Of a stretch of DNA of 64,000 nt, positions 23,288 through 62,521 are shown piece after piece. The stretch is from positions 62,001 through 126,000 of the forward strand of contig JAGNIU010000006.1 in the NCBI GenBank assembly GCA_018000995.1, read 5' to 3'. The position numbers were made by a program, and so were the translations under genes. Origin of the DNA: Bacteroidia bacterium. Lineage in GTDB: Bacteria > Bacteroidota > Bacteroidia > B-17B0 > Aurantibacillaceae. The notes under the pieces are model-generated. The model made no database searches. It saw only the letters and a list, made by a program, of their open reading frames with translations, and was not told the DNA's origin. The first letter of the stretch is position 1. Each line of letters starts with the position of its first letter.

Positions 23288-23303
23288 TCAGAGGTCCCGA
23301 GCG
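23287..23303. other. attL: 17-bp direct repeat, tRNA-Cys 3' end duplicate
   Basis: TTCAGAGGTCCCGAGCG here is repeated exactly at 61409-61425, where it forms the 3' end of an intact tRNA-Cys gene. Only this stretch is shared; the flanking sequences diverge immediately. It marks the left boundary of the island, next to the integrase gene. The gene-free stretch 22999-23510 holds this site, the hairpin and the arm repeats, and nothing else I recognise. Confidence 0.88.
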
Positions 23304-36801: not shown

Positions 36802-37773
36802 TTTGCCATTAAACTCTGAATCAAGAGATGAAATCGCTTTTTCAAATCTTTGGTAATCATCCTTTTTTGAAATTGATATTGCGTTATCAATAAGAATTTT
36901 ATCTGGTTTTAGACCAGTAATTTTAGCAAGACCTGCTATCGTATCATTTAGTATTATTGAATTAGCTTCAAACAACAAGTCTGTTCCACTTTTGTTCAGA
37001 TTGATAACTCCTAACGGTCGATTCAGTAAAGAGAATGCTTTTAATGTATATTTAGAGCCTCCATCAATTTTACTTTGTACTAATATTAATCCTTTTGAAA
37101 GGCCTGCTTGAATTCTACAAGAATCAATAACTTTAAAAGTATCTTCTTTTAAACCACATTCGTATTCACTTAAAATTAACCCGCCATTTTCCAAAACTTT
37201 TTCAGCCATTAACGCTGTTGAAGCTAGTAATGTTTTTGTTTTATTATAATTCAAGCCACCCGCTAGTACACCAACCACATTGCTATGAAGTCCTTTTTCT
37301 CCAGTAATACTTGCCTCGTCAACTCCAATGGCTAATCCATTACAAATAGAATATCCTTTTTCGTGAAAATAAGCTCCAAGTCTTTTTGCTATTTCAATAG
37401 CGATACTATCCGCTTCTCTTGTTCCAATTATGCCCAATGATTTTTGTGCGGCTGCAAGATTTCCTTTGTAAAATAAAACAGAAGGCGGGTCTTTTATTTC
37501 AGAAAGAGTTTTAGGGTATTTGCTATCACTTAAATCGACAAGTTTCACATCATTATCGTGCGATTTTGAAATAGTATCTTTTGAAAGACCAACATACTCT
37601 TCTATCTCTTCATCAGAAATTTTCTTTTTCAAAATCACTAAAGCCTTTTCTATGATTTGATAATGAGATTGATTATCAAATACTCCGTTCAGCCAGAGTT
37701 TTTTTATTGCAACCTCTCCAGCGCCTTTTACCTGACGTAATGCTAATATTGCTATTAAATTGTTATTGCTCAT
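36793..37773 (-). CDS. Divergent DprA-like Rossmann-fold protein
   Basis: 326 aa from the ATG at 37773, which overlaps the stop of the HAD-PRTase gene (TAATG). An HhH-like N-terminus (about 5-40; ALRQVKGAGEVAIKKLW) precedes the DprA/LOG Rossmann fold: IIGTREADS, YSICNGLAIGVDEA, VGVLAGGLNYN, GGLILSEYECG, SCRIQAGLSKGLILV. The family sequence SGLARGID is changed to NGLAIGVD, and RNRIIAGLS to CRIQAGLS, so nucleotide or ssDNA binding may differ from competence DprA, which loads RecA on single strands. It is the last gene of the seven-gene operon. Confidence 0.8.
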   Translation of the reverse strand: MSNNNLIAILALRQVKGAGEVAIKKLWLNGVFDNQSHYQIIEKALVILKKKISDEEIEEYVGLSKDTISKSHDNDVKLVDLSDSKYPKTLSEIKDPPSVLFYKGNLAAAQKSLGIIGTREADSIAIEIAKRLGAYFHEKGYSICNGLAIGVDEASITGEKGLHSNVVGVLAGGLNYNKTKTLLASTALMAEKVLENGGLILSEYECGLKEDTFKVIDSCRIQAGLSKGLILVQSKIDGGSKYTLKAFSLLNRPLGVINLNKSGTDLLFEANSIILNDTIAGLAKITGLKPDKILIDNAISISKKDDYQRFEKAISSLDSEFNGKLF

Positions 37774-47100: not shown

Positions 47101-47450
47101 TCAAGAATAGGGTATTGGAAACATTCTGTTTTACCAGAAGAAGTACCAGTTGTGATTAATGTTGCTTGAGGTTTGTGACCTACTTCTGTATTTAATCTTT
47201 GGAATGCTTTATACTGATGGTGATACGGAGGAAAATTGGGTTTTATATCGAGCGGAATAATCTCTGATTGTGTTGCGGTTACAAAAGGGAGTTTTAATGA
47301 AACATACGGCCCTTTAAATATTCCTTCTTCATTGTTGTTTATGAAATTATAAAATGCTTCATGCACTAACTTATCCTTAAAGCTAAATGTAGCTTTAAGA
47401 TATTCAAGTATTGAATGTTTAACCTCGTATGCCTGCTGTAATGGTAACAT
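41136..47450 (-). CDS. Giant DEAD/DEAH helicase with DUF1998 and nuclease-like C-terminus (DrmA-DrmB/DruE-like)
   Basis: 2104 aa. SF2 helicase core: motif I TGTSSGKT (101-108), Ib YPMNALASDQ, II DELH (236-239), III SAT (273-275), V ATSTLEMGID and VI QRVGRAGR (about 1050). Zinc-like CxxC pairs occur near 480, 590, 930 and 1340. A DUF1998 module follows (IHDNIPGGTGY about 1585, then CGCQYKGKDGCYRC about 1620). The last 500 residues contain TDFYI (D1751) and YLDGYTFH (D1783, H1788) followed by NDLQKR, a DUF559/Vsr-like endonuclease pattern. DISARM encodes the helicase and DUF1998 parts separately as DrmA and DrmB; Druantia DruE combines them. The gene is 2 bases after the methylase gene. Confidence 0.85.
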   Translation of the reverse strand: MLPLQQAYEVKHSILEYLKATFSFKDKLVHEAFYNFINNNEEGIFKGPYVSLKLPFVTATQSEIIPLDIKPNFPPYHHQYKAFQRLNTEVGHKPQATLITTGTSSGKTECFQYPILDYCYKNLNRSGIKVIILYPMNALASDQAKRLAEAIWSDSRIKGKVTAGLFIGEGKDKKKYPKEMGENHVIENRDSIVDSPPDILLTNFKMLDYALMRNNYHNLWNFNLEDSSLLQFLVLDELHTYDGAQGTDVANLIRRLKLKLTIPKGQLCAIGTSATIGSGADSKKLLTTYAEKVFGEEFDEESIITENRLEVDAFFDLSNDSLDKYIPRQIGLLESRLKENETYIDYIKRQKRLWQLPETIESVSLGVELKKLKLVKDLISLTSKNIKALGVLLKELADCNEEFRRLPEWDQENELNPREEVINSILALIAEAKVGEGRKFPFLYLQIQMWVRELSGVLRELNEQPLFTWKDKVGDKYEPKALPSYYCRECGASGWLGIKDDNKNHFDSEPNKVYEYFFSNHKNIYLVNTPNHQHIEEYEPTNTIDDFLHPVDLTILEKGGKEAFKIHAVRKVTDAKSRHVCPECNTENTLGIIGTRIATLSSITVSQVLASDLDPRTEKYRKILAFTNSVQDAAHQAGFIEARNYRFTFRSSLQKVINNCGPQINLAQLQEEFIKYWKANSDESGGNNEQAYYYRFFPADFKSKADINTDYRTGNNFTPEFKKEFDERMRWETSVEFGFNAILGRTLEKSGASAIKFDEEKLKAVFPEMKEWLLQNNLSPIIEVLFLPFINGILHRVRTRGGVDNEYLSKFRENGLQLWDLNWMRDNRHFLNRFFGARTRLPKLLTTEPHGRGLLDTTFTKTNNWYRSYFLKSFILASPHHAIINDFYEKLFEVFVKVGIMNKAGTEENYNYAIIPAVILVENKVKRHECDVCASSLSVADSDVLTSLTNCLDYTCKTGSYKPSPKTKPNYYQLVYNRNRSPRIYSAEHTGILERKDREQKEFDFKERPNFNSLNTIVATSTLEMGIDIGTLNTAINNSVPPLTSNFLQRVGRAGRSSGSALITNFAQSKAHDLFYYEEPLDMMEGEIATPGCYLEAKDILFRHFFAYCLDNWTSENPRNHSIPGRLISLRLLNTDLSSPDFLSNRIISFVKANESRLLNRFIDFYTPDLEDTKVLDNLRSILGDESFYSRIKLVFVKIKKEYEYIHEKRKEIDNIIKSNNLPETDEERKILEGEKKALWGLKRLIDKRSVLEHLTNVGLLPNYAFPETGVTLNAWVKSNPAKASANIPTDKQFEIVRSSSVAIREFAPDNHFYSQGFKFAISGLNTFDWKDPGTLLRKRFCSNCDHIADSAVSTESFCPKCGDSSWSSAKNQHIFVRINSVKSVNTREKSTLDDSSDERKANLYKVSKHVKFDYNTFQGAWGMKDIPFGIEYVKNVDITEVNLGLSSAADANKITINQHEDIPYHGFVTCKYCGKSTSSPHRARFDKNFKFHFGYCKHKDKLYDGKSDEIFEEVYLFKEIKTEALKVLLPVQDLESESQVNMFKAGLELGLKKYYKGNPQHLSFINYSEFNAKNSRFDKYLVIHDNIPGGTGYLEKLFNPIEFTEVITKAYHAIKDCGCQYKGKDGCYRCIFTYSNQHIQDELSRTWAEKLFKKIVDKSSAWENYTSGLGSLSGNGQIEESELEERFIRSLKNFVLAKTDSGFHFEEFIQEGIVNYKFKVTSGELGYSYVIRPQFELGPAEGVKYKTRTDFYITLVAVERNGIAVTDEAVLSYAKGIAIYLDGYTFHATKENNRFYNDLQKRIAIIESGNKISWTLSWSDVERFDAPEKENDAESKQFKRDNLFLDRTKYKSTISKYEVVPYWKSYKSSLFEKKNSFERLIWVLCNPLEESNKEPKIGLLLSLFQSNFANPSVDEVDIEKTLSSSTKLDNGMQAKIKSQGKFYVFPELFSGADFATLKIAIKVLDLDVKASLWINQVNGNLEKNKWENFWQLYNLIQANSILKTEIATEEQSQDTQDDNKYDCLQYHDKSVHQIVKQLIDKNIFFKKEGGFFIEHNGVFAEAMLGFENKKIFISPQSEADKKLFELAGYSEIKLEDFNIKDIT

Positions 47451-47452
47451 AA

Positions 47453-50400
47453 TTATTTGTCCTTAAGCTTTTTTTCAAAGTGCTTCCAAGCGTTTGTGTA
47501 ATCCTCAACTCTGTTATATTTAGAAAATGGTGCGACAAAAGTGATTTCCTTGCCATTAAATTGCTCGCTTTCTGTTATTTTATAAGTGTATTTTTCTCCT
47601 GCTTTTAAACATTTGATTTGTTCTAACTCAGTTCTTGTAACTCCAACCCCTCTTAGTGTCTTACTGCTTGGTGTAAACACAATTTTCCCACTTGTATCGT
47701 ACCAAGTATCATCTTCGAACTTTTTCAATATTGAAAAATTAAGAAGATAAATTTGTACTAGCTCTTCAAGCGTTAAACCAAAATTCATAGCAACCAATAC
47801 ATCAATCTCAACCAATGCTTGTCTTCTCGTTAATAGATTTCGAAATGGAGTTGATGCAGTCCAGTTCTTCGAAACATTGGAAATATCTTCCAAGCCAGAT
47901 TTCTCACACGACCATGAATCCTTAATAAATTCATCCTTAAATAATTCTTCCCAATAAGGAGCGTAGCACTTTTGAATACAATTAAGCCTTAGAACACGTA
48001 AGAATATTTCCGATTTAAATTTCGATTCTATTTTAAACGGTAATGGGTCAATTCTGCTACCGTAAATATTTGGGGAGCCAATAGTTTTAATACAAAAATC
48101 GTAAAGAATAGAAGTGGTCAAACTTAATATGTTGTTTAGAATTTCAAAATCCTTATGAAATGCAGAAAGAATCGAATTTATATGCCCCATCTTTGGAGCT
48201 AATAGCGCTGGTTGTAAGGTCCTCTCACCATCAACGTCAACCATCTTTCGAAAACCAACTCTAAAGGAATTTATTTCCTTTGATTCAAATGGAAATTTCT
48301 TTCCAGGAATTAGGTTCGTTCTTGGAAGAGTCAAATCCTCGTTTAACAGTAAGTCATTAAAATCATAATCTGAACCTTCTTTACTTACAATCTGTGGCGA
48401 TTTAAAAAGTGGATAGGAAACAGAAATCATTGGTCCCGTAAGTACGAGCTCATATTTATTTATATCGGGTGAAATTGTTTTTCTTTCAAGTTCGTCTTCG
48501 GAAATTGAAGATGTTTCATGAAAACCCTCGCTATAGTTAACGCCCTTGTCAGATATTCGTTCTTTAGTTTCACTAAGTTTTTTCAAGACTTGAATTACTT
48601 CACTAGATTGAATGTTTACGAGCTTAACTACCTTGTAGGATTCTCCTTTTTCAAAAAGGTCTGCAAGGAGTTGAAGTGATTCTTCATTGTGCTTTATTAG
48701 TCTATTTACATTTCCTTTTAAATTCCATATCCAATCACCTTCTGTGTTTTTTACAATTATTGCGTTATCAACTGTTAGACTAAAAGTTGTTTCAAATACT
48801 TCTATCTGATTTGGGTGCAACAAATTGCTAATTGAAATAAATGAAATATTTTCATTTCTCTTGCCGTATACATTAACTCCATAATCTAATCTGTGGTGAA
48901 CCTCCTGAAATAACTTAAGTATATTTTTAAAATGGAAATGATATTTTAATCTATCATAAATATCTTTTCTAAGAGCTTGCCCGTTTGAATCTTCATATAC
49001 ACTCTCAGGATGAATTAATCCCATCCATCCATTGGGACCTAAAAGGTCAAACCCATTTACTAAAATACATTTGTAAAGATTTGTTTGTTGCCCTAAAAGA
49101 GTAGAATATGAATGTGTGCCATTCATGAATGATGCTGTGCAGCTTGTCTCAATTATTTCTTGTTCATATAAATTCTTTAATCCCTTATCAGAGAAAAAGC
49201 CAGTTTTCAAATTTCGAATTTGTGGAGCAGAAACACTTCTAATTGCAATTTCTGGAAATTTCTCTGATAAAATTCCTTTCTCTTCGAATGCTACTTTTAA
49301 CCAAGGGGGATTCCCCGCCATTAAATCAAAACCACCTCTTTCCCAAAAGACTTCTAGAAATTCTAGTTGTGGATGAAAGAAGAAATACTTCTTTGACAAC
49401 TCAGCAACAATTTTCAGCCTTTGATTTTCATCAAATAAGTCTTTCCTTTCCGCATATTCAACAACTGCTGCTTCAAACACCTTTGGTGCGTCATCAGTTT
49501 CCTCTCCTAAGGCAAGCTGTTCACCACCTGTATAAAATAATTTTTCTTGTAAACCAGCTTGTATCTTCTCTTCTGTTTCATTTGAAACAATTTTATCAAT
49601 ATCTAATTGCAAAATATTACCAATATCACTCCAGTATTGAGCTCTATTTGGTAATTCATCGGCTTGGCGTACATCCCAAAACCAAAGACTGCACCAGTAA
49701 TCCATTACCATTTTCAACTTGAAATATGGTGCGCTATGTCTATTTCTTTGGTCAGCAAGTTTTTCCTTCTCATCATAGCTTTGCATTTGCAATATACCTT
49801 GCTCGTTCTTTTTTGTTGCCCCAAAAATGTTTTGTCTTGAACCCGTTTGTAAATTGATATTGCGTTGAAAACGGTAATACTCCGCAAGCAGTTCATCAAT
49901 AGTATTGGAAATTACTTTTACCCTTTCAAATTCAGTTTTTGTTAGTGGCTTAATCCATTCTTTCTTCCAAGTTGCAACACCTTTTGTAAAAAGGGAGTTT
50001 TCTTCCTTTAATAATTTAATACCAGCAGAAGCAACCATGCTCTTGTCAGGCAGCAGAAAGTGGTAAACCTCATTTTGTTTCCGATTTGTTTTAATTTTAT
50101 CGAAATCGGAATTAGGTTTAAACTCCAATTGGCGTGGGGCTTTTTCCCACCATTCTTTTTTTGCAAGTGCTTTTTTGTCTTTTCCTTTTCCAGATTTAAT
50201 CACTTCGTACTCTTCAATTAAATCCTTCTCTGCATAAACTTTTAACCAAGCACCCACTACGGCATTTCCAACGCAAATACGGTTACTGAAAAAAGGTGTT
50301 TCCATATCCCTATGGATTACGTTTAGCCACAAGGATAATTTCCCTAATTCAATTGCTGTTGGATTTAAATCGACACCATAAACATTGTGAGTTGCTATAT

Positions 50401-52294
50401 ACGCTTTTACTTTTTGTAATTCTTCTTTGTATTGGTCTGGTTCAATTTTCCATTCCTTTCTTCCAGAGTCACGCAATTCTTTTTGACGATAGCTTGTATA
50501 GGCTTCGGCCAACTGGTTAATCATTTCGTTATGGAATGCTGCTGCACCCATTGCAGGCTCCAACAATTTCAAGTCAAGTAATTCCTGCGCCTTCATTTCG
50601 CCTTTCTCTAGTTTTTCGAGAATGGGTTTGAGTGTGTATTTAACAGTACAACGAGTTAAAACCTCTGGAGTATAATATGAAGCTGATTTTTGTCGGTCAC
50701 GTCCACTCAGGCGATAAACAAAAGTTCCTTTTTTAAGAATTACATCCTGATGATTTTCATCTTTTAATATTTCATCTTCTTTAAAGTCATCTCTTCTACT
50801 CCGAGGAACCAGATACGTTCCATCTTCTGGTTTGTCCTTTTTGTGAACCTCAATGTAATCTTGCTCAGCATAAAAACCACGGTAAGCCAGTAAACTTTCA
50901 TAAACACTTCCTAATTGGTTAATTCCAAGGTTTGCATAAGAGATTCTTCCTCTAGCTTTATTGCGTTGCTGTTTTGAAAGCGAAAGGCGGCAAATAATAT
51001 CTTGCCAAACCTTATTTCGGAATTTTACTTTGTGTAAATGGTGCAGCTTTCGGTCATCAAAAATTGGTGAGTCAATGTGTCGAACTTTGAAACTCTTGTT
51101 GTGTCCATTTTCCTTTTCACGATAACCAGAACTCAAGACATGAAACAATTTACTCAATGATTCATGAAAGAATTCTCCGTTCAAACTGTTTTCAGAATAC
51201 AATGGAACCTGCTCAAGGTCCCTCAGCATTTCTAATGAATATCCCTTATTGTAAGTGGAGTCATTGCTTGGTAAAATATCTAAGTCTTCACGGCTTTCTG
51301 CATAGAATATAAAAAGAAGGCGGTAAATAATTCTTAAGCAATCATCCTTAATTTCTTGCTCAAATTTATCATCGGTTTCATCAAAGTCTTCATGCTTTTT
51401 TTCCTTTAGGTAGAATAGCGCTTCATTGGCCAGGGCTTCTACAGCATGAATAATGCCTTCCTTTAGGTCTTTCGTGACCTCGTAGGCGCTTTTGTGACTG
51501 TCCTCGTCCAATTGGTCCAAAAGAACCATATTGCTATCTGGAGCCAGCGTTTCCTTTCCTACAAGAAAATAGAATAAAGCGTAATAGTTTGCGTTGCGGT
51601 TTGCCGTTGCTTCAGAGAAAAGCTCCTCCAGTTCGAACTGCAAGTAACTCCCTCGGAACCATTTTTCTTGTTCAAGTAAAAATAATCCATTACCTGCAAG
51701 CAATAAAATATACTTCGGTCTTTGATGCGGCTCCAATAAAAACAGTTGTGAAACGGCTTTATTAATAATTACAGGGGATATTTTTTGGTCCTTTGGAGTC
51801 GTAAAAACCCTTTCCCATTGTAAACGGTGATATTTTTGAGCAGGGTTTGCCTGTTCTTCATCCTCCACATTATATCGCTGCTCAAATAAACCATCTGGCT
51901 CATTATCGTCCTCTTTAATGAGAGACTGCATTTCCATTACCATCAAATGAGGTTGGTCTCCACGGTAAAGAATATGCCTTACTGGAATTACTTGCTCTTC
52001 GGTGAAATGAAAAAGATGGTCGTATTGCGTGTGTGCAGCATCATAACCTAATGCACTTAAAAGATGTGTATGGAATTGATGCGTTTCGAATATTTTATCT
52101 TTCGTTCTGAGCCTCCCTTCAATGTAAAGCTCTTTGTATCGGAAAAACTTTTCCTTTAGTGGAGTAATTTTTTTATTGAATTCCTTTACGTCTTCTGCAT
52201 TGTATCCTGTTTTGGATAACACTTTTGATGTAAAGTCCTCATCAAAATAATTTGAAGAAAAATAATCACCTGTATTTCGTATAAACTTTAACAT
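47453..52294 (-). CDS. Large Eco57I/PglX-like N6-adenine DNA methyltransferase (DrmMI-like)
   Basis: 1613 aa. SAM-binding motif I is LLEPAMGAAAF near residue 580, followed by VYGVDLNPTAIELGKLSLW; catalytic motif IV is AGNPPWLKVAFEEKG near 995. The gap of more than 400 residues between them is long. The last 400 residues are probably target recognition. The N-terminal 300 residues contain HLMVMEMQSLIKE, where a type IIG nuclease would have ExK; the Lys is missing, so I see no working nuclease. The role would be marking host DNA with N6-methyladenine, as PglX in BREX or DrmMI in class 1 DISARM. The gene lies 6 bases after the SNF2 gene. Confidence 0.87.
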   Translation of the reverse strand: MLKFIRNTGDYFSSNYFDEDFTSKVLSKTGYNAEDVKEFNKKITPLKEKFFRYKELYIEGRLRTKDKIFETHQFHTHLLSALGYDAAHTQYDHLFHFTEEQVIPVRHILYRGDQPHLMVMEMQSLIKEDDNEPDGLFEQRYNVEDEEQANPAQKYHRLQWERVFTTPKDQKISPVIINKAVSQLFLLEPHQRPKYILLLAGNGLFLLEQEKWFRGSYLQFELEELFSEATANRNANYYALFYFLVGKETLAPDSNMVLLDQLDEDSHKSAYEVTKDLKEGIIHAVEALANEALFYLKEKKHEDFDETDDKFEQEIKDDCLRIIYRLLFIFYAESREDLDILPSNDSTYNKGYSLEMLRDLEQVPLYSENSLNGEFFHESLSKLFHVLSSGYREKENGHNKSFKVRHIDSPIFDDRKLHHLHKVKFRNKVWQDIICRLSLSKQQRNKARGRISYANLGINQLGSVYESLLAYRGFYAEQDYIEVHKKDKPEDGTYLVPRSRRDDFKEDEILKDENHQDVILKKGTFVYRLSGRDRQKSASYYTPEVLTRCTVKYTLKPILEKLEKGEMKAQELLDLKLLEPAMGAAAFHNEMINQLAEAYTSYRQKELRDSGRKEWKIEPDQYKEELQKVKAYIATHNVYGVDLNPTAIELGKLSLWLNVIHRDMETPFFSNRICVGNAVVGAWLKVYAEKDLIEEYEVIKSGKGKDKKALAKKEWWEKAPRQLEFKPNSDFDKIKTNRKQNEVYHFLLPDKSMVASAGIKLLKEENSLFTKGVATWKKEWIKPLTKTEFERVKVISNTIDELLAEYYRFQRNINLQTGSRQNIFGATKKNEQGILQMQSYDEKEKLADQRNRHSAPYFKLKMVMDYWCSLWFWDVRQADELPNRAQYWSDIGNILQLDIDKIVSNETEEKIQAGLQEKLFYTGGEQLALGEETDDAPKVFEAAVVEYAERKDLFDENQRLKIVAELSKKYFFFHPQLEFLEVFWERGGFDLMAGNPPWLKVAFEEKGILSEKFPEIAIRSVSAPQIRNLKTGFFSDKGLKNLYEQEIIETSCTASFMNGTHSYSTLLGQQTNLYKCILVNGFDLLGPNGWMGLIHPESVYEDSNGQALRKDIYDRLKYHFHFKNILKLFQEVHHRLDYGVNVYGKRNENISFISISNLLHPNQIEVFETTFSLTVDNAIIVKNTEGDWIWNLKGNVNRLIKHNEESLQLLADLFEKGESYKVVKLVNIQSSEVIQVLKKLSETKERISDKGVNYSEGFHETSSISEDELERKTISPDINKYELVLTGPMISVSYPLFKSPQIVSKEGSDYDFNDLLLNEDLTLPRTNLIPGKKFPFESKEINSFRVGFRKMVDVDGERTLQPALLAPKMGHINSILSAFHKDFEILNNILSLTTSILYDFCIKTIGSPNIYGSRIDPLPFKIESKFKSEIFLRVLRLNCIQKCYAPYWEELFKDEFIKDSWSCEKSGLEDISNVSKNWTASTPFRNLLTRRQALVEIDVLVAMNFGLTLEELVQIYLLNFSILKKFEDDTWYDTSGKIVFTPSSKTLRGVGVTRTELEQIKCLKAGEKYTYKITESEQFNGKEITFVAPFSKYNRVEDYTNAWKHFEKKLKDK

Positions 52295-52300
52295 TCCTAA

Positions 52301-55147
52301 TTACGAATTATAAAACACTGCTAATACTTTTAAATAAGGCTCTCCATGCAATGACGTGAGGTCATTATAGTATTGGCTTGATGTGCTTAGTATTGTTTCA
52401 ATTTCTCTTTGTCTGTTGTCCTTAATACTGGACCAATAATTTCCTCCAACTCTTTCGCTGAAATCCATTTCTAATTGTTCCATTGCAGCCTTATGCCAAT
52501 TTTCAATCTTTGTTTTGTAATCATCCAACTTCTTTTCCATTTTACCTTCAAGCTTTTGTTGTTCTTCTTGCATGTGATGGGCCGCCCATAGAACAGCATC
52601 AGGCAAAATAGTTTGTAGATTACCAATTTCTTCCTCAGTGATAGTTTCTGTGTGCATCGTTTCTCTCATCTTAAATTCATCAATAAAATTGCTCAATGAG
52701 AAAGTCTTTCTAAGAATGCTACCATCCCATTTTATACCTACAACAAGAAAATCTACAAGAACTGGCTGACTAAGATTGTTTGAAACTTGCCCTTGGAAAA
52801 CAAACCAGGCACTTTTTGCAGGAAATATTTTTGATTTAGAAACAAGTGCAACATCTTTATTAACGCTGGCTTCTAACTTGGTCATATAATATCGTATTAC
52901 AGGATGCAATTCATACAAAACCTGAAACTCAGCCCACTCACCATGTTTTTTCCTCGCTTCATCAATTGATTTTTGAACAAGAGTTTTGTCAAGAGAAAGT
53001 TTGTAAAGACTATTCACTTTCGGTTTTGACTCTGGTGGCAAATCGAACAATATTTGATTAAGCTCCTTTGTATTTATTACCTCAAGGTAATCATCACTCA
53101 CGGTAACTTCATTTTTGCTCAATTGATTTCCAGAACTCAACTGCTCAAATAATTCTTTATAGAAACCAAAATCATTATTGTAAATGGATAGTGGTTTTTC
53201 AAAGGGCTCATCAGTGATAGTAACTTCTGTTGTGTCGCACATTGTGCTAAAATCAAAGCCTCCTTCTTGTTTCTTTTCCAAAAACTCTTCATCTTGATTC
53301 AAAAAAGCATTTTCAACTTGGTTTTCTTCCTGTTCTGCTTCATACAGCTTCATTACAGAGCCTGCGTCACCTAGTGTTTTATAAACAACCTCTTCTTTCT
53401 TCGTTATGCGCTCTATAATATGCAAGTCTGTCTTCAAGCCTTTTATATTTGATTCAGCAATGATATAATGTACAAATGGCGTTTTCTTCTGACCATATCG
53501 GTCAATTCGGCCATTTCTTTGTTCAAGTGTTATGAGGGACCACGGAATATCATAGTTGAACATTCTATTGCAATAGTAATGTAGATTCACACCTTGAGAA
53601 CCTGCATCGGAACACAATAAAATTTTTACTGTGCTATCCTGTTTGCCAAAATCATCAATTATATCTTGTTGTTCAGTATCTGTTAAGCCACCGTGAAAAA
53701 ACTGAACAGATTCTTCTTTTAGTTTAAAATCATAAGCCAGATTTTCTCGCAAGTAAGTTAGCGTATCAATCCTCTCAGCAAAAACCACAAAGCGGTCATC
53801 ATTTGTTTTTCCAGACCATCCAAGCTCAAGTAATGTTTTTTTCAATTGCTGATACTTACTATCAGATTTCGATTTTAGAATTTTCTCAAGCTTACTTTTT
53901 AGTTCGTTTAAAATTCCAAGATTTTCTTCGAACGCATCTTCCTCAGATTTATTTGCTTCAACTTTTTCAATCCTTCGCTTTATGCTTTCAAGCGCTGCTT
54001 GGGGTGAAGACATAAATGCTTTAAAGATTCCAATTGAAAAAAGGAAATCATCTTTTGGTTTCCCGCTTTTGTACGAAGCAATCGCTTTGAATTTAAGTTC
54101 TTGTTGGTATTGCAAGAAATCAATTTCATCAGTGCTTAGGTCGCATGATTCACGAACTACTTTTCTTTCAGAAAAATTAGCACGAACTGCTTCGTCTTCG
54201 ATGTCATTTTTAAATCTTCTTACATAATATGGCTCAACATGACTTTTGTCATAGTCGCCATTTCGAGGAATGGCGGTTGGTTCAATCATGTTAATCAAAT
54301 TGGCGAAGTTTTCCTTTTTACCATTATGCGGAGTAGCAGAAGTAAGAATCAATGACTCGCATTTTTTTGAAATGAATTGAGCTAAGTCACCTTTCTGACT
54401 CTTATCATTTGCAACTGTATGACACTCATCAATTACTACCACATCCCAGCGAGATTTCTCTAAGTAATGTCTGAATTTCGCATTTCTTTTTAGTGTATCA
54501 ATCGAAATGATTGTTTTGTCGTAGTAATCAAATGGATTTTTATTCGCTGGTAACTGCGATTTAATTTTTGCAATTCCTTCTGAATCTAAACGAACCAAAG
54601 GAATTGCAAAGCGATTCCAAATCTCTTGCTGAAATTGAGCAAGAATTGATTTTGGAGCAAGGACCATAATTCGTTTCCCTTTACCTCTCTTAATCATTTC
54701 AGTAAGGAAAATTCCAACTTCGATTGTTTTTCCCAAGCCGACTCCGTCAGCTATAAGCAAACGTGGGCGTGGAAGTTGCAATGCTTTTAAAGTAGGCGTG
54801 AGCTGATAATCTGCGGCATTAATCGCTGCTTTATTTGCAATAGTAATTTTCTCAGAAAAAATTGAAGAGTTTCTGATTTGTGTTTCCAAAAATAATTTTG
54901 TTTTCCTGTAACCACTATCGTTATCAGGAACCAAAGAAGTATGATTCGGGTCAACAGGTTTTATATCCGTATCAAGACTTGAATCAAATGCAAAGCGTTT
55001 ACCTTTTACAAGCTCACTTATTCCTTCAGCATCAATTAAAACAGAACCATCGTGATTTACATTGGTTCCTGTAATAATAAAATCCTCTCCTCTCGTTGAT
55101 ATTCGTTGTCCTATTGTAAGATTCATTCTCCCTAAATTTTTAATCAT
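52301..55147 (-). CDS. SNF2-like SF2 helicase (DrmD-like)
   Basis: 948 aa, with M8 (55126) as an alternative start. Motif I is ADGVGLGKTIEV (133-144), Ia LAPKSILAQFQQE, II DECH (230-233), III TSATPHNGK, then the helicase-C half with QGVNLHYYCNRMFNYDIPW, and motif VI QRNGRIDRYGQ near 540. The C-terminal 350 residues are helical with charged coiled-coil-like stretches. Layout and length match DrmD of class 1 DISARM and BrxHII of BREX. It overlaps the XRE gene by 8 bases and is followed by the methylase, the order drmD-drmMI seen in DISARM. Confidence 0.87.
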   Translation of the reverse strand: MIKNLGRMNLTIGQRISTRGEDFIITGTNVNHDGSVLIDAEGISELVKGKRFAFDSSLDTDIKPVDPNHTSLVPDNDSGYRKTKLFLETQIRNSSIFSEKITIANKAAINAADYQLTPTLKALQLPRPRLLIADGVGLGKTIEVGIFLTEMIKRGKGKRIMVLAPKSILAQFQQEIWNRFAIPLVRLDSEGIAKIKSQLPANKNPFDYYDKTIISIDTLKRNAKFRHYLEKSRWDVVVIDECHTVANDKSQKGDLAQFISKKCESLILTSATPHNGKKENFANLINMIEPTAIPRNGDYDKSHVEPYYVRRFKNDIEDEAVRANFSERKVVRESCDLSTDEIDFLQYQQELKFKAIASYKSGKPKDDFLFSIGIFKAFMSSPQAALESIKRRIEKVEANKSEEDAFEENLGILNELKSKLEKILKSKSDSKYQQLKKTLLELGWSGKTNDDRFVVFAERIDTLTYLRENLAYDFKLKEESVQFFHGGLTDTEQQDIIDDFGKQDSTVKILLCSDAGSQGVNLHYYCNRMFNYDIPWSLITLEQRNGRIDRYGQKKTPFVHYIIAESNIKGLKTDLHIIERITKKEEVVYKTLGDAGSVMKLYEAEQEENQVENAFLNQDEEFLEKKQEGGFDFSTMCDTTEVTITDEPFEKPLSIYNNDFGFYKELFEQLSSGNQLSKNEVTVSDDYLEVINTKELNQILFDLPPESKPKVNSLYKLSLDKTLVQKSIDEARKKHGEWAEFQVLYELHPVIRYYMTKLEASVNKDVALVSKSKIFPAKSAWFVFQGQVSNNLSQPVLVDFLVVGIKWDGSILRKTFSLSNFIDEFKMRETMHTETITEEEIGNLQTILPDAVLWAAHHMQEEQQKLEGKMEKKLDDYKTKIENWHKAAMEQLEMDFSERVGGNYWSSIKDNRQREIETILSTSSQYYNDLTSLHGEPYLKVLAVFYNS

Positions 55148-55424
55148 TCAATTCACTGAGTGCTTTTCTGAGGCCTTTTTTACCTGAAGGGTCATTGCCA
55201 ACAAGGCTTATTACCTTATCTGCATACCAAAGCGTCAGTAACGAATCTGATTCAACATCAAAATATTTAGCAAGTTTTTCTATCTGCTCCTTTCCTAAAA
55301 ATCGCTCACCATGTTCAACCTTGCTTACCATGGCTGTATCGCATTCTAAATGTGCTGCAACTTGGCGTAGAAGTAGTTTTTTGCGCTCACGAATTTCCTT
55401 GATTTTCCTTCCTAATTGGTTCAT
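55140..55424 (-). CDS. XRE-family regulator of the defence operon
   Basis: 94 aa; the HTH_3 domain lies at about 5-62 (LGRKIKEIRERKKLLLRQVAAHLECDTAMVSKVEHGERF, in segments) with a short helical tail. First gene of the leftward seven-gene operon and overlapping the SNF2 gene by 8 bases, so it is translated with it. It most likely autoregulates and may control the divergent operon through the inverted repeat at 55441-55464. Confidence 0.88.
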   Translation of the reverse strand: MNQLGRKIKEIRERKKLLLRQVAAHLECDTAMVSKVEHGERFLGKEQIEKLAKYFDVESDSLLTLWYADKVISLVGNDPSGKKGLRKALSELND

Positions 55425-55440
55425 CGCTATTTGTATTTAA

Positions 55441-55464
55441 TTTGACTTGTCAGAATGTGTCAAA
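55441..55464. promoter_or_regulatory. Operator candidate in divergent defence promoter
   Basis: TTTGAC-N12-GTCAAA inverted repeat in the 105-base space between the two divergent defence operons. TAACTTTA at 55491-55498 is close to the Bacteroidota -7 consensus for the rightward operon. One XRE dimer here could control both directions. Confidence 0.55.
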
Positions 55465-55529
55465 TTTATAAGAATATTGTTAACTTTAGGAAAGTATCTG
55501 ATAAATTTTAATAGTTTTAAGGTAAAGTA

Positions 55530-56588
55530 ATGTTAAGAGTATTTTCAAATAGCAGGAAACAGATTGATTTTGTTGAATATGACAAATCAACTGTGCTTAA
55601 TAGGGCAATAACCACCGCAGCTATAAGAAATGGAAACTTTACGTTTACAAATCACGAATTGGCGATAGCTATTGCCAGGGCAACAATTGGCTCTTCATTA
55701 CCAAAAGACCCAATATCTTTTGCAGAGTATGGAGCTGCATTTTATAATCTAATGACACTTGAGGATATGCGCCATCCCGCATTTAGAGTTAATTCTCAAT
55801 CAGTAAAGAGATATAGAGACTTTTCAAAAACAACAAGAACAGGAGAACTCGCTCAAGGAATATCTTTTTTGTTTGCGCAAAAAGTATTGAGACACTCGGC
55901 AATTGTAGATTTCAAATTATTCTTTGAAAGAATTGGGTCTCCAATTCATAGCGTTGCTAAAACTCCAGATTATATAATTGCAGACAATATATATGGTGGT
56001 GTTGACCTTATGGAATGCAAGGGGGCTTACATACCTTCACAAAATACAATTGAAAACAGGATAATTGCTGTAAATAATCAATGTCAGAGCGGAGAATCTA
56101 TTGTAAACAGTATCCTTAATTGGAGGGTCAATAATACATACTCCTGCTGTATTAGTGTTTCAAATGAGAATTCTCCTGCTGGAACCAAAATCCATTTTGC
56201 GGACCCGCCAGGAAAACAATTGGAAGACGCTAATTTAATTCAACTAATTCGTTTCCATTATGCGTCTTGGTTTTTACTTGCAGGAGATTTTGACAATGCC
56301 TCTCTTCTATTAAAGAATAAAGCGCCTCAAATATATGAGGAACCTGAAGTTTCATATCGGGGAAAAAACATTAATGAAGTTTTCTTCCCAATTGGAAATC
56401 AAAATTGGCCTGACCCATTGAATAGGTTTTATATTTCTAAACAAACTCTTGATGTAATAAAAGGAGAATCTAAAAAGCTACCTTATTTGGTGCAATCTGA
56501 AACAGAGGAAAAAGAAAACAGAGAAAGTATTATTTTTCGAGATGGTATCATGTTTAAATTGAATAGAGGTCCTGAACAAATCGGATAA
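55530..56588 (+). CDS. PD-(D/E)xK-like restriction-type protein
   Basis: 352 aa. TPDYIIAD (D147) and DLMECKGAYIPS (E162-C-K164) fit the PD-(D/E)xK nuclease active site. The N-terminal 140 residues are helical (NRAITTAAIRNGNFTFTN, ELAIAIARATIG) and the C-terminal half is mixed. No known restriction family is recognised. The gene ends as the helicase gene begins (TAATG overlap), so the two products probably cooperate: nuclease plus translocase. It is the first gene of the rightward operon. Confidence 0.65.
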   Translation: MLRVFSNSRKQIDFVEYDKSTVLNRAITTAAIRNGNFTFTNHELAIAIARATIGSSLPKDPISFAEYGAAFYNLMTLEDMRHPAFRVNSQSVKRYRDFSKTTRTGELAQGISFLFAQKVLRHSAIVDFKLFFERIGSPIHSVAKTPDYIIADNIYGGVDLMECKGAYIPSQNTIENRIIAVNNQCQSGESIVNSILNWRVNNTYSCCISVSNENSPAGTKIHFADPPGKQLEDANLIQLIRFHYASWFLLAGDFDNASLLLKNKAPQIYEEPEVSYRGKNINEVFFPIGNQNWPDPLNRFYISKQTLDVIKGESKKLPYLVQSETEEKENRESIIFRDGIMFKLNRGPEQIG

Positions 56589-59500
56589 TGGAACAGGTTG
56601 GTAATTTTCAAATACTTAAGGAATACCAAAAGCTAAATGAGAACATTTCATTGTGGTTTGCTGAATCACAAGAAGGACTATACTTTGAAGTTCTCATTAT
56701 TAAAAAAAAGGCTGAGTACCAAACTTTGCTTGACAGAATTTTAAGAAGTGAAATTCAACCTATCCTTAATGCCAGCATAGAGGGGTTTCAGAAAACTCTT
56801 CAATTTGATTTGGACACGGAACAACAGGTTTACTACATTGTTTACGAACCGTTAGGCGGAGAACTGGTTCCCTTGTCAAATATTTCCCTTCTTAATTTCA
56901 AAAATATAGTATTAGGAATAGATGCACTGAAGAAACAGAACCGCTTTTGTCACATTTTTAGCCCAGCTTACTTATTGTCAACCAATAAGCATCTAAAGTT
57001 GCGTTTTTTGGGCCTTTTCGAACTGTTTAAGCAACAAGGCTTGCTTGAAGCAAAGTATTTGGCTCCAGAAATAACAGAATGGCTTAACGACACAAAAAAG
57101 TCAAGACCTAATTTCCAAGCGGATATCTATTCTCTCTTTAAAACTTTTGAATCTTTCGTAGTTAAAACAAACCATCCAAAATTAAACCAAGTTTTTAATC
57201 AAGCCACAGTCGAAAAGCGAACAGAACGCTATGTAAGATACAGGGAAATAATAGATGACCTGGAGCAAATAAAACTGCCGAGTCTGGCAAGCAAAGCAAA
57301 GCCAACGGTTTTAGTAAACACACATCGAGGAGATGAAGATAAGTTAATACCAATACTTGAAGACCTGAGCAACGGTTGTCATATCTTATATGACCCAAAT
57401 TCAGATATTGATTCGATTGAAGCAAGCTTCTCCACCAAGAACTATTCTGGAAAATTTACTATTGACGACAGAAATTATATTTTCATAAAATACAGCTCTT
57501 GCCGAAAAACTTCTAACCAAGGTGTTTTAAGCGATGGTTTTTTTGTTGACCTAAATTTTGATTTCGAGGCCATTCATTTTTTTGATTCTCTTTCTTTTTT
57601 TAGAAGTAAATGGAGGGACCAAAATTCGCTTGCCAAATTTCATCAACAAAAAAGAAATCTTTTAAAAGAATGGCATACACTCCCTGCAATGGAAATGGAA
57701 TTTGTTGAAGAAACGGCCTTTAAAGCCTCTTACATTAAAAGGGAACAAAGTAAAAGCACACCAACAAATATTATTTTCACTCTTGATGACAAATTTCGAA
57801 GCTGGTCAAAATTTGTTGAATTAAAACAAAACAAAGTCGAACTCTCTCTCAATGATAAAATCATTGGCCAAATCAATGATTATAAAATGAAGGAATCTGT
57901 TCTGATTATAAAAGATTCAAAACTAACACTCGATGAGATTCCAGAAATTGGAGAGCTCATTCAGGATATTCGAAAAGAGATTGGGCAATTTAAAAAACAA
58001 GTTGAAGCTGTTAAAAAGTTTGAGAAAAGAGATATCGTTAACCCTGACCTTTCGAGTATTCTTGCTTCTCCCGAACGAGTGCCTGAATCCAAGCAATCCA
58101 TCTTCCAATCCGATTATGATAACTTCAAGGAGATAGTCATCAATCCTAAGTTGAAATCAGACGACTCTCAGAGAGAAGCAGTTTACAATGCTCTACGACA
58201 CAAACCCCTTTATTTAATTCAAGGCCCCCCAGGTACTGGAAAAACAACTGTGATAGTTGAACTCATTCAACAAATAATAAAAGACAAACCGACTGCAAAA
58301 ATTCTTGTGACTTCGCAATCTAATCTTGCAGTGGATAATGTTCTGGAACAGCTTCCTGAAAATGTTCTGTTTATGCGGCTGGCGGCGAAGGAAGAAAGAA
58401 TAACTAATGAGAAAATAAAAAGGCATTCTTTCACAAACAAACTTAAGCATTGGGTGCAAGAAACTCAGGAACGGTCTTCAGATAATTTCAATTCAAAATT
58501 TAAAGAGGCCAGTCGAGATAAAGCTTTAATTGAATTTTATAATTCCTATAGCAATCTTAATAGGAACGAAGATTTTAAAAACTTCACTAATCACCTTCGA
58601 ATGAGAAGTCAACATATTAAAGGCATGTTTGAGAAGGCAAAAAGTTTCAAAGACGCAGACAAAATATTCGAAACCAAACTGGGAAGTAAATATCAACGTT
58701 TAAAATTAATTCAAAAAGAGTGGTTTGCTTTTTTAGCGAATGCCGAATCTGAGGATGGAGACAAAAAGAAATCAATGATGAACGATGGCAGCGCAGAAAT
58801 TGATTTGCAGACCGCATTCCTTAAATCGGTTAATGTTATTGGAGCTACCTGTATACATATTGCAAGTGGCCAGTACAATAAAATTAATTTTAAGTTCGAC
58901 TATGTTATCATGGACGAAAGCAGTAAGGCAAGTCCAGCGGAAACATTGGTTCCTGTTAACATGGGCCAAAACATTATACTCATTGGAGACCATAAACAGT
59001 TACCGCCAGTAATCACCAGAGAGGAAGCTGTAAGACAAAAAGTACGAACTGAGTTAGAGGATAATGGATTGGATATTGAAAAAACTTTTGGCGAAAGTCT
59101 TTTTGAGAAACTCATTATTGCTTTTGAACATAATCCTCAACTTCAGAACAATGTAAAAATGCTCGACATCCAATATCGGATGCCAAAACAAATAGGAAAT
59201 ATTATTTCAAAGTTCTTTTATCAGGGAAAGCTCAGGAACCCAGATATAAAAGTTTTACCTTCCTACGACCAGGATAAATCTCACGAACTTAATTTCAAAA
59301 TACCAACAGTTTCAATAGTTGAATCGGTTTCGAATTCAGAAGTTAAAGTCCCTGCTTCAGTTGTTTTTGTCAGCACGTCATTAAAGGAGAATCCGAGCGA
59401 TAACAATAATCTCTCAGATAGAAGAAACGAATGTAATAAGACCACAATTGAAGAGGTACTAACTGAATTGGATTTATTGTACAAGGATAATCACAAGAAG

Positions 59501-59929
59501 AAAAAACCATTTACTGTAGGAATTATCGCTGGTTACAGAGGACAGGTTAATTTGTTGAAAGACAAAATAAATCTTGCTAAGTATAAAAGTTTTGAAATAA
59601 TAAATAAAGAGGGACGTGCAGAATCCCTTATCGAAATAAATACAGTGGATAAATTCCAGGGGGCTGAAAGGGATATCATTATTTACGATGTAGTAAAGAG
59701 TAGTAAGGGACCAACCAATATTGGCTTTTTGGATGATTACAGAAGGATTAACGTTGCACTGTCAAGAGTTAAACGTCTGCTGATTATTGTCGGAGACAGC
59801 GAGTACATCATGAAGCGAGCAAGTCTGAACAAAGACTCACAGTTTAAAGAATTTAAGCTTCGGGAAATTACAATGGAGCTTGAAAGGCAGGGAGTAATCG
59901 TAAATAACTTCAGGGATATTATATTATGA
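56588..59929 (+). CDS. Pseudokinase-SF1 (Upf1/Dna2-like) helicase fusion
   Basis: 1113 aa. Residues about 1-205 look like a Ser/Thr protein-kinase fold: FQILKEYQ...VLIIKKK (VAIK-like), YYIVYEPLGGEL (hinge), HIFSPAYLL where HRDLKPxNIL belongs, LKLRFLGLF where DFG belongs, KYLAPEI (APE) and QADIYSLFKTFESF (DxWS region). The catalytic and DFG Asp are absent, so it is a pseudokinase. The helicase follows: motif I QGPPGTGKTTVI (about 543-554), II YVIMDESSKASPAE (about 770), III IGDHKQLPP, then DIQYRMP, VDKFQGAERDI and VALSRVKR (about 1057). It ends in an ATGA overlap with the next gene. Confidence 0.85.
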   Translation: MEQVGNFQILKEYQKLNENISLWFAESQEGLYFEVLIIKKKAEYQTLLDRILRSEIQPILNASIEGFQKTLQFDLDTEQQVYYIVYEPLGGELVPLSNISLLNFKNIVLGIDALKKQNRFCHIFSPAYLLSTNKHLKLRFLGLFELFKQQGLLEAKYLAPEITEWLNDTKKSRPNFQADIYSLFKTFESFVVKTNHPKLNQVFNQATVEKRTERYVRYREIIDDLEQIKLPSLASKAKPTVLVNTHRGDEDKLIPILEDLSNGCHILYDPNSDIDSIEASFSTKNYSGKFTIDDRNYIFIKYSSCRKTSNQGVLSDGFFVDLNFDFEAIHFFDSLSFFRSKWRDQNSLAKFHQQKRNLLKEWHTLPAMEMEFVEETAFKASYIKREQSKSTPTNIIFTLDDKFRSWSKFVELKQNKVELSLNDKIIGQINDYKMKESVLIIKDSKLTLDEIPEIGELIQDIRKEIGQFKKQVEAVKKFEKRDIVNPDLSSILASPERVPESKQSIFQSDYDNFKEIVINPKLKSDDSQREAVYNALRHKPLYLIQGPPGTGKTTVIVELIQQIIKDKPTAKILVTSQSNLAVDNVLEQLPENVLFMRLAAKEERITNEKIKRHSFTNKLKHWVQETQERSSDNFNSKFKEASRDKALIEFYNSYSNLNRNEDFKNFTNHLRMRSQHIKGMFEKAKSFKDADKIFETKLGSKYQRLKLIQKEWFAFLANAESEDGDKKKSMMNDGSAEIDLQTAFLKSVNVIGATCIHIASGQYNKINFKFDYVIMDESSKASPAETLVPVNMGQNIILIGDHKQLPPVITREEAVRQKVRTELEDNGLDIEKTFGESLFEKLIIAFEHNPQLQNNVKMLDIQYRMPKQIGNIISKFFYQGKLRNPDIKVLPSYDQDKSHELNFKIPTVSIVESVSNSEVKVPASVVFVSTSLKENPSDNNNLSDRRNECNKTTIEEVLTELDLLYKDNHKKKKPFTVGIIAGYRGQVNLLKDKINLAKYKSFEIINKEGRAESLIEINTVDKFQGAERDIIIYDVVKSSKGPTNIGFLDDYRRINVALSRVKRLLIIVGDSEYIMKRASLNKDSQFKEFKLREITMELERQGVIVNNFRDIIL

Positions 59930-60753
59930 GTAAGCAGAGAGATGATAAAAATATAGACCCGAAGTTCCAAAGAGCTTATGATATGTTCAAGCATAATCAC
60001 AATCCTGATTATGTGCTAAGTACTATATTTGAACTATACTTACCATTCTGGGCCTGTCGTACTGCCGTGATAGTTGAAAAGGACCTTGCTCTTGACAAAC
60101 TAAGTAAGATTTTTTTGGAGTTAATTCAATCAGGGATTTCCAAACACGATGACCTGTGCTCATTTCTCGGAGTTAATACAAATTCATTTATTACAACACA
60201 ACTTCACTTCTTGTTGAAACATGGATTGCTTGGTGAAGAATTTTCTACAACAGGGTCTGAATATAAAATCACCAATGAAGGTTTAGCTTTTCTTGAAAAG
60301 AAAACAAGGCTGAAAAACCTGGAGACTATTGAGTTTGATTATTTCTTTAACGATATTGGATTAAGTTTTCTTGACAAATATGGTTCGGTAAATGAAGTTG
60401 GCAAAGCCAAGAAGGCATCGGTAAATTACCGATTTTCAGAAACACGAAGACTGCCCATCAACAGTAAACTTATTGCTCATAAGAATAGACCGAACAACAT
60501 CAACAAAGTAGATTTCGCAAGATTCTTCAATCAATTGAATAAAACGATGACCTTTTATGATTTGGAAGAGGCAGAAGCAGAAATTCATAAACGTTCAGTT
60601 TGTTTTTTAGCACTTGAATATTCTGATAAATCTGGCGCTAAAAAATATGACATACGGCTGTCAAAGAAAACCTCTGGAGCATTTAAGGAGCATTCATTAG
60701 ATGAGGAATTATCAAAAGCAGTTACCCAATATTATAAAAAGAATCCCCTATGA
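59926..60753 (+). CDS. Winged-helix protein of unknown function
   Basis: 275 aa. Residues about 55-118 (LELIQSGISKHDDLCSFLGV, FITTQLHFLLKHGLL, YKITNEGLAFLEK) form a winged-helix fold like those of phage-like and defence-associated regulators. The rest is mixed, with a basic C-terminus. It overlaps both neighbours by four bases (ATGA), so expression is tightly coupled to the helicase and to the last gene. It could recognise DNA or sense a protein partner; no enzyme motif is visible. Confidence 0.6.
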   Translation: MSKQRDDKNIDPKFQRAYDMFKHNHNPDYVLSTIFELYLPFWACRTAVIVEKDLALDKLSKIFLELIQSGISKHDDLCSFLGVNTNSFITTQLHFLLKHGLLGEEFSTTGSEYKITNEGLAFLEKKTRLKNLETIEFDYFFNDIGLSFLDKYGSVNEVGKAKKASVNYRFSETRRLPINSKLIAHKNRPNNINKVDFARFFNQLNKTMTFYDLEEAEAEIHKRSVCFLALEYSDKSGAKKYDIRLSKKTSGAFKEHSLDEELSKAVTQYYKKNPL

Positions 60754-61316
60754 AATTATTGGAATTAGTTGATTTGGCTTACCAGAACGCCAATGAAGTT
60801 GAATTTGGAAATAGTCCTGCCTGGGATACCGAAACATTTACAAGTAACTGGTTTTCAACAAGAAACAGTATTCAGCCTTCAGCTCCAGGATTATATTGGT
60901 TTATCTCGGATGCTGTTTTGAATAATTTGGTTCGCCCCGCAGGCTTACCTTTAAAGGGCTGCGATTTTACCCACACCTCTAATTTGCTTATGACACACTT
61001 CGGAGAAGATTTGATTACCAGAATGGATAATTCAAATTTAAAGGTTGTCTATAATGGTCATGAGAAAAATGTGATGGGAAGAGTTCGCTCGCATTTTGCA
61101 CTTAATAATCCTTTAACGGGGGCCTTGGGTTTGAATTATTATTCATTATCCCAATATAATTGGAGACTTCTTTATTTTACCACAAGAGATTTAGAGCGAA
61201 TTCCAGAGGGCAGCAGACAAGGTTTAACTAATTTATTAAACTTCAGAACGGGAAGAATAGCTCTTGAAAATGCCTGGAGAATTAAACACGGCTGGCCACC
61301 CTTATGCAAGGCCTAA
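60750..61316 (+). CDS. Divergent GIY-YIG-like nuclease candidate
   Basis: 188 aa. APGLYWF (GLY at 47-49), VVYNGHEKNVMGRVRSHF (YNG at 101-103, R111/R113, H115) and ALENAWRIKHGWPPLC (E173) follow the order and approximate spacing of the GIY-YIG nuclease motifs: GIY, YIG, Arg and the metal Glu. The second motif is YNG instead of YIG and the insertion between the first two is long (about 50 residues). It is the last gene of the island and ends just before the right end, in an ATGA overlap with the wHTH gene. Confidence 0.6.
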   Translation: MKLLELVDLAYQNANEVEFGNSPAWDTETFTSNWFSTRNSIQPSAPGLYWFISDAVLNNLVRPAGLPLKGCDFTHTSNLLMTHFGEDLITRMDNSNLKVVYNGHEKNVMGRVRSHFALNNPLTGALGLNYYSLSQYNWRLLYFTTRDLERIPEGSRQGLTNLLNFRTGRIALENAWRIKHGWPPLCKA

Positions 61317-61333
61317 GAGGGAGAAATTTCTCC

Positions 61334-61355
61334 TTTGCCACACCCTTTGCCACAC
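61334..61355 (+). repeat. Right arm-type repeat pair (2 x TTTGCCACAC)
   Basis: TTTGCCACAC at 61334 and 61346, the same sequence, orientation and 12-bp pitch as the pair at 23422-23443. A probable integrase or accessory-protein binding site near attR. Confidence 0.65.
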
Positions 61356-61369
61356 TTAAAAAGCAAAAT

Positions 61370-61396
61370 CCCCCTATGCAATTGATACATAGAGGG
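61370..61396 (-). terminator. Island-borne terminator for tRNA-Cys
   Basis: The minus strand reads CCCTCTATG-loop-CATAGGGG followed by ATTTTGCTTTTT. The hairpin follows the 3' end of tRNA-Cys after integration. It is unrelated in sequence to the hairpin left of attL, so the island appears to bring its own terminator. Confidence 0.55.
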
Positions 61397-61408
61397 AAAT
61401 TATTTTGC

Positions 61409-61425
61409 TTCAGAGGTCCCGAGCG
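61409..61425. other. attR: 17-bp direct repeat at tRNA-Cys 3' end
   Basis: Identical to 23287-23303; its last 12 bases are the 3' end of the intact tRNA-Cys. Integration therefore preserves the tRNA at the right side. The remaining tRNA bases (61426-61484) belong to the host chromosome. Confidence 0.88.
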
Positions 61426-61484
61426 GATTCGAACCGCTGTAGGAGCTTTTGCAGAGCTCAGCCTAGCCACTCGGCCACAGGACC
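61414..61484 (-). tRNA. tRNA-Cys (GCA)
   Basis: 71 bases on the minus strand fold into a complete cloverleaf: acceptor GGTCCTG/CGGGACC, D stem GCC/GGC, anticodon stem GAGCT/AGCTC with loop CTGCAAA (anticodon GCA), T stem AGCGG/CCGCT with TTCGAAT, and discriminator U73, which is the cysteine identity base. CCA is not encoded. This is the integration target of the island and remains intact. Confidence 0.95.
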
Positions 61485-61724
61485 ATTTGTTTAATTAAGA
61501 ACGGATAGCAAAAATACTCTTTTTTTAGATACTTATTAGAAAAATATTAAGGGCTTTGCTTATGATAAAAGTGTATTGTTACGATTTACACTAGTCAGTC
61601 ACCCCAAACCACACCCCAATCATCTTTTACCTAAACTCAATCACTTATTACTTTGTTAGCTGTAGTTATTGCTTTTTGGGTTTTATGAGATGTTTCAAAT
61701 ATACTTTTGGTTAAAATTTATATT

Positions 61725-62498
61725 ATGAAACAACTTACTTTATTTTTAGCCTTTGCTTTAATTATTTTTTCTTGCAAAAAAAAGGAGAGCCCTGCGCCTT
61801 CAACACCTGCAACGCCTAGCAGCAGCACTTGCACCAATCCAGGATCTCTTTTAAGTTTAGAGTTTAATGGCAACTTAACTGACAACAGTTGTAGTCCGCA
61901 AACCATAACCAACAACGGCGCAACTTATACTGCAGATAGAAATGCGAACGCCGCAAAGGCATTAAATTTTAATGGCACTTCGTACATTAATTATCCTAAT
62001 GCTGCAGCTTTACATGATGCGCTTCCTTTAACGTTGTCGTTTTGGGTAAGTGTTGATGATAGTTCTGATTGGGCCAGCAATTATTTTTTACAATCGAACG
62101 CAAGACCCAACGGTGGTTACTGCGGTTATTTAGTGCGTTGCAATGCTAGCGGACAAATTCATATTACCATTGGTGATACAACCAACAGCACAACGATAGA
62201 TGCCATTTCATCAGTAATTTTAAAATCGAATACTTGGACGCATTATACAGCGGTTGTTAAAGGAACTAATGATGTTGATATTTACATTGACGGACAAAAA
62301 GATTTAAGTGCGAGTGTTAGTGGTACAGGAAATTCTATTTCGTACCCTGCTGCATCGTCAACTAATTTAGGTTTAATTGGTGGCGTTTCTTTTTTAACCA
62401 ACAACGGAAGATTGAAAGGAAAAATGGATAAAGTAAAATTCTGGAACAAAGCTTTAACCAGCACAGAAGTAGGAACAGAATATTCGAACATGAATTAA
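61725..62498 (+). CDS. LamG-domain lipoprotein
   Basis: 257 aa from the ATG at 61725 (an upstream TTG is unlikely). Signal with lipobox LIIFSC (Cys17), a Ser/Thr/Pro-rich linker, then a LamG/concanavalin-like lectin domain (about 45-257; LTLSFWVSVDDSSDW, DVDIYIDGQKDL, GKMDKVKFWNKALTSTEVG). It is probably anchored in the outer membrane and binds a glycan or protein. It resembles the LamG/T9SS protein at 13977 but lacks a sorting domain. Confidence 0.85.
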   Translation: MKQLTLFLAFALIIFSCKKKESPAPSTPATPSSSTCTNPGSLLSLEFNGNLTDNSCSPQTITNNGATYTADRNANAAKALNFNGTSYINYPNAAALHDALPLTLSFWVSVDDSSDWASNYFLQSNARPNGGYCGYLVRCNASGQIHITIGDTTNSTTIDAISSVILKSNTWTHYTAVVKGTNDVDIYIDGQKDLSASVSGTGNSISYPAASSTNLGLIGGVSFLTNNGRLKGKMDKVKFWNKALTSTEVGTEYSNMN

Positions 62499-62521
62499 TT
62501 CTAAAGAAAAACATTGTAATT

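Follow-up and report, generated by a model that had tools for sequence, protein, structure and literature searches.

The anti-phage systems of Mokosh type I are usually described as a helicase and a serine-threonine kinase, plus a PLD nuclease, and type II consists of a single protein, MkoC, with a C-terminal PLD nuclease (PMC11672841). Nine canonical relatives of type I from Bacteroidota (loci L007, L008, L011, L012, L013, L107, L108, L109 and L110) possess a kinase with the motifs HGD (HKD in L107) and DFG or DLG, a helicase and then MkoB, a protein of 436-489 aa that comprises a winged helix and an H-x-K PLD domain. Among these, the gene pairs of L007 and L107 are named MkoA and MkoB by PADLOC.

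Here we compare with these systems a four-gene operon from a member of the Bacteroidia (GenBank assembly GCA_018000995.1), located in the window, i.e., the whole stretch of 64,000 nucleotides that was analysed. Judged from the sequence, the operon is probably a derivative of Mokosh type I with exchanged effectors, namely the nucleases, a reading to which we assign a probability of about 0.58. As in Mokosh type I, a kinase-like domain and a UPF1-like helicase are encoded by one gene, which is followed by a tightly coupled gene for an MkoB-type winged-helix protein. In contrast to type I, gene 2 of the window lacks the kinase catalytic residues and gene 3 the PLD domain, a GIY-YIG-like gene occupies the place of the PLD nuclease, and the operon opens with an extra PD-(D/E)XK candidate. 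Mokosh type II shares the helicase family and the logic of helicase plus nuclease, yet it is one PLD-bearing protein, whereas the window operon encodes four proteins, none of them with PLD. Hhe (DUF4011 helicase-Vsr) and other UPF1-like helicase-nuclease systems, which gave weak matches, also join a UPF1-like helicase to a nuclease; unlike Hhe, the window operon yields no DUF4011 or Vsr match and features a kinase-like domain and an MkoB homologue.

Four overlapping genes with an MkoA-MkoB-like core

The operon comprises four intact, rightward open reading frames between 55530 and 61316 on the plus strand. Gene 1 (55530..56588, 352 aa) codes for a candidate PD-(D/E)XK nuclease called from its motif, gene 2 (56588..59929, 1113 aa) for an MkoA homologue composed of an N-terminal pseudokinase and a UPF1-like SF1 helicase, gene 3 (59926..60753, 275 aa) for the N-terminal half of MkoB with its winged helix, the PLD nuclease domain being absent, and gene 4 (60750..61316, 188 aa) for a predicted GIY-YIG-like nuclease. 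The frames overlap consecutively at the junctions TAATG, ATGA and ATGA, and 105 bases separate the operon from a divergent HTH gene (55140-55424, minus strand); the gene positions, the overlaps and the width of this gap had been recorded in an earlier note on this DNA. The coding scores of the four frames amount to 0.20-0.26 bits per codon, as compared to shuffled means of about -0.6 and negative values in the other frames. Codon usage thus marks all four genes as coding, and the observation of a four-gene set stands. The sequence data also agree with the note's proposal of a single operon, in which a helicase is accompanied by DNA-binding and nuclease partners and which probably serves in defence.

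The product of gene 2 matches MkoA of Mokosh type I along residues 21-1091 of 1113 (PADLOC, E 2.8e-128). Its Pfam matches are AAA_11/AAA_12, the UPF1-like helicase pair, with no kinase family among them, and the helicase motifs are intact. In an alignment of the N-terminus the ATP lysine, HGD and DFG of the kinase are gone, while adjacent parts of the fold are kept; the description of gene 2 as an SF1 helicase with an N-terminal pseudokinase was therefore correct. The same three kinase elements are missing from the nearest relative of the helicase, L010 of the rumen Bacteroidales MAG RGIG6546 (41% identity), which is also a pseudokinase. Upstream of the L010 gene (2248-4682) there is no gene 1, and the contig breaks off inside the helicase gene, before any MkoB. 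Since the loss is common to two proteins of 41% identity, it appears to be old and not simply decay at the window locus; together with the intact helicase motifs, this speaks for a pseudokinase that still has a function and against a recent decay.

In a tree of 40 helicases gene 2 and L010 are paired at 100/99, and the pair groups with 11 Mokosh-type helicases from Bacteroidota, again at 100/99; given several long branches and the midpoint root, the exact position of gene 2 is less certain than its membership in the group. Helicases of this kind are rare: at E 1e-60 one was detected in 3 of 295 other genomes from the phylum, and at E 1e-45 in 4 of 394 others from the class. When 366 genomes from a different order of the same class were searched for members of the pseudokinase clade, just two weaker, more distant helicase matches came up.

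Gene 3 resembles MkoB at residues 34-142 (PADLOC, E 2.8e-7) and the MkoB protein of L107, a canonical locus near the window lineage, at residues 10-202 (phmmer, E 1.2e-17). A match to Pfam HTH_45 (E 0.003) falls below the cut-off of that model. The winged helix previously assigned to gene 3 is thus weakly indicated by Pfam and well supported by homology to MkoB. The gene ends where the PLD domain starts in its relatives, and the alignment stops before the H-x-K domain. A tblastn search of all frames of 55000-62500 brought up no PLD remnant, which rules out a frame-shifted MkoB gene.

Taken against the usual description of Mokosh type I, gene 2 provides a helicase of the MkoA family (COG1112, UPF1-like) according to PADLOC and the tree, and the next gene provides the N-terminal half of the MkoB subunit. 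The region homologous to the serine-threonine kinase has lost Lys, HGD and DFG and matches no Pfam kinase, and a PLD-family nuclease is absent from gene 3 and from 55000-62500. Because these two defining parts are lacking, we call the operon a Mokosh derivative and not a plain member. The earlier note had recognised no named defence system in the gene set, and would have given up its proposal if the set mapped to a described one: genes 2 and 3 do map to MkoA and MkoB of Mokosh type I, while the candidate nuclease genes 1 and 4 map to no described system.

Two candidate nucleases

Gene 4 gave no relevant family match with PADLOC or Pfam, and the Pfam GIY-YIG model did not match it at E up to 10. 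Nevertheless, the protein displays PGLY at residues 46-49, VYNG at 100-103, R...H at 111-115 (R111) and Glu173, and thereby has the GIY and YIG tyrosines, the helix arginine and the catalytic glutamate, all of which are kept in a relative from Massilia sp. H6. This relative, first met as a tblastn match at E 0.02 and aligning with gene 4 at E 5e-10 in pairwise BLASTP, shares the pattern PG-x-Y, VY-x-G, R-x-x-x-H and a C-terminal E-x-AWR...GWP-x-LC. It is annotated as a 172-aa “hypothetical protein” and is encoded in an integrase-bearing region of a plasmid (NZ_CP103372.1, 7908-8426; L097).

A profile built from the two sequences aligned with GIY-YIG domains on the YIG block at a probability of 79-82% (hhalign), where a negative control reached 0.1%. 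In the PDB the profile matched a single structure at E values up to 10, namely UvrC with its GIY-YIG domain (1yd6, E 0.5). These profile tests uphold the GIY-YIG identity proposed for gene 4; each line of evidence is modest, yet all converge on the same residues, and the assignment as a GIY-YIG-like nuclease is well supported at the level of sequence. As in UvrC/URI-type nucleases, the YxG block is retained in gene 4 and the Arg helix comes after it. Gene 4 departs from them in that about 45 residues are inserted between its GIY and YIG blocks, and in its C-terminal E-x-A-W-R...GWP-x-LC block, which is common only to the Massilia protein. The two proteins form a small, unnamed GIY-YIG-like family. 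Further relatives were sought in viral contigs (with gene 4 alone or together with its Massilia relative), in phages, and in 86 genomes from the order and 394 from the class. The matches were due to chance, with the exception of one exonuclease-GIY-YIG protein, whose alignment fell on the YIG block. A single-sequence AlphaFold model of gene 4 reached a pLDDT of 35, too low to be of use. A remnant of the MkoB C-terminus was also considered for gene 4 and ruled out (hhalign, 0.1%).

The assignment of gene 1 rests on the motif PDYIIADNIYGGVDLMECK, where a helix is followed by PD146-147 and then by ECK162-164 (E-x-K) at the end of the strand DLMECK. The PD...(D/E)xK motif is embedded in a hydrophobic strand context, and the strict pattern recurs in 1 of 1017 control proteins and in 0 of 5000 shuffles. 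PADLOC and Pfam matched gene 1 to no family, and no relatives emerged from the genome and viral contigs (by peptide patterns), plasmids, phages or 394 other genomes of the phylum; weak matches were inspected and judged to be due to chance. The single-sequence AlphaFold model has a pLDDT of 32. Of the PD-(D/E)XK protein postulated earlier, the motif was thus found, and neither a family nor relatives joined it; without detectable relatives or a usable model, the nuclease remains a motif call.

In favour of an exchange of nucleases, modularity is seen at other Mokosh-like loci. In L018 an MkoB-like winged-helix gene is followed by a separate PLD gene. At L009 (11006-12337), a second Mokosh locus where MkoB (272 aa) lacks PLD, a PDDEXK_3 (GxxExxY) gene begins about 135 bases after MkoB. 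Downstream of the canonical locus L107 lies a GIY-YIG gene of the DUF4357 kind on the same strand; such genes are common in islands. The three cases show that the PLD part is separable, and they do not prove its replacement by another nuclease.

The PLD-less MkoB of L009 would also fit the view of the operon as a decaying Mokosh locus, in which MkoB has lost its PLD domain, the kinase is dead, and genes 1 and 4 belong to the cargo of the island, co-transcribed by chance and unrelated to Mokosh. Consistent with such cargo, relatives of genes 1 or 4 stand beside no other Mokosh locus among those examined, and the complete four-gene set was seen once, with no second locus in the genomes sampled, where the peptide-pattern scans reach close relatives only. 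Yet the pseudokinase is shared with L010, which dates the loss back, and the helicase motifs are intact; moreover, all four frames are intact with coding bias, an ATGA overlap joins gene 4 to gene 3, and no remnant of a PLD domain is left behind. We consider decay an unlikely account of the operon, albeit the most serious competitor of a Mokosh derivative with exchanged nucleases.

The integrative element and the divergent operon

The earlier note had placed the four genes at the right end of an island, and this is borne out by att repeats and a tRNA gene. A 38.1-kb element (23287-61425) is integrated in tRNA-Cys (61413-61484): the 17-bp repeat TTCAGAGGTCCCGAGCG forms attR at 61409..61425, at the 3' end of tRNA-Cys, and its second copy forms attL at 23287-23303, close to a gene for a tyrosine integrase (23511-24782). 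The element carries the whole defence cluster, with the four-gene operon at the attR end. A HipA-like toxin with an HTH partner (24784-26417, minus strand) lies beside the integrase, and the island also encodes a 504-aa protein with PDDEXK_1 and RNase_H_2 domains (35287-36801, plus strand).

The divergent left operon (39046-55424, minus strand) codes for an XRE-type HTH protein, a DrmD-like SNF2 helicase, a 1613-aa type IIG-like methylase, a 2104-aa DruE3-like protein with an MZB domain and a UvrD-like helicase. Its genes match pieces of DISARM, type IIG, Druantia and UvrD/Gabija-like models, and it can be viewed as a DISARM/Druantia mixture. A pair of ShosA (DprA-like) and ShosT (phosphoribosyltransferase-like) genes (36793-39038, minus strand) adjoins it. 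The gap between the divergent operons contains a perfect inverted repeat, AATTTGAC-N12-GTCAAATT (55439..55466), which is operator-like and a putative regulator site. The XRE-type regulator might perhaps act through this repeat on both operons.

Such an arrangement would suit the suggestion that the left operon, with its HTH, DrmD-like SNF2, type IIG-like methylase, DruE-like and UvrD-like components, and the four genes belong to one large system, the four genes being its effector half: the gap measures just 105 bases, the inverted repeat lies next to the XRE-type regulator, and the four-gene operon lacks its own regulator. It is usual, however, for systems to lie side by side in defence islands, and the left genes match other named systems. 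Furthermore, a DISARM/Druantia-like partner is absent from every Mokosh-like locus examined, and thus, the constant pairing expected of a joint system was not encountered. For this reason we take the right operon as a separate system; the “effector half” finds little support and is improbable, and autonomy of the four genes from the left operon is the best reading of the sequences.

A possible mechanism and its meaning for Mokosh

A wholly new system, related to Mokosh by nothing but a generic UPF1-like helicase, is already disfavoured and very improbable: although gene 1 is an orphan and neither of the defining catalytic activities of Mokosh type I is kept, the MkoA match spans the kinase-like N-terminus as well as the helicase, the MkoB homologue follows in the next position, and the tree places gene 2 with Mokosh-type helicases.

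There is about an even chance that the operon represents a Mokosh subtype not described before, whose conserved pseudokinase-helicase and PLD-less MkoB would drive nucleases of the GIY-YIG and PD-(D/E)XK type as two interchangeable DNA cutters, such that the helicase module can swap its cutting part. From the operon structure and position we infer that genes 1 and 4 are working partners of the helicase; complex formation, sensing, a substrate and anti-phage activity would be further predicted properties of the operon. The MkoA-like helicase may bind and translocate on nucleic acid made in infection, and its pseudokinase may function as a regulatory or docking domain instead of an enzyme. The winged-helix protein related to MkoB would form the link between helicase and cutter. 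Most likely, the pair of helicase and winged-helix protein would sense infection-linked nucleic acid and license cutting by the attached nuclease or nucleases. The cutter, in canonical systems a PLD domain fused to MkoB, would be supplied here by the separate GIY-YIG-like gene 4, and the PD-(D/E)XK-type gene 1 is a second candidate. GIY-YIG and PD-(D/E)XK folds mostly cut DNA, and hence, the operon may target phage DNA and not RNA.

The operon adds an unnamed GIY-YIG-like family to defence islands, and part of the Mokosh family will escape searches that demand a PLD domain or a kinase. In a natural variant without kinase activity and with another nuclease fold, the part that senses is set apart from the part that cuts, and the variant thus bears on how Mokosh senses phages and what it targets. 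From this variant one would expect the kinase to be dispensable, and the pair of helicase and winged-helix protein to be the core of the system.
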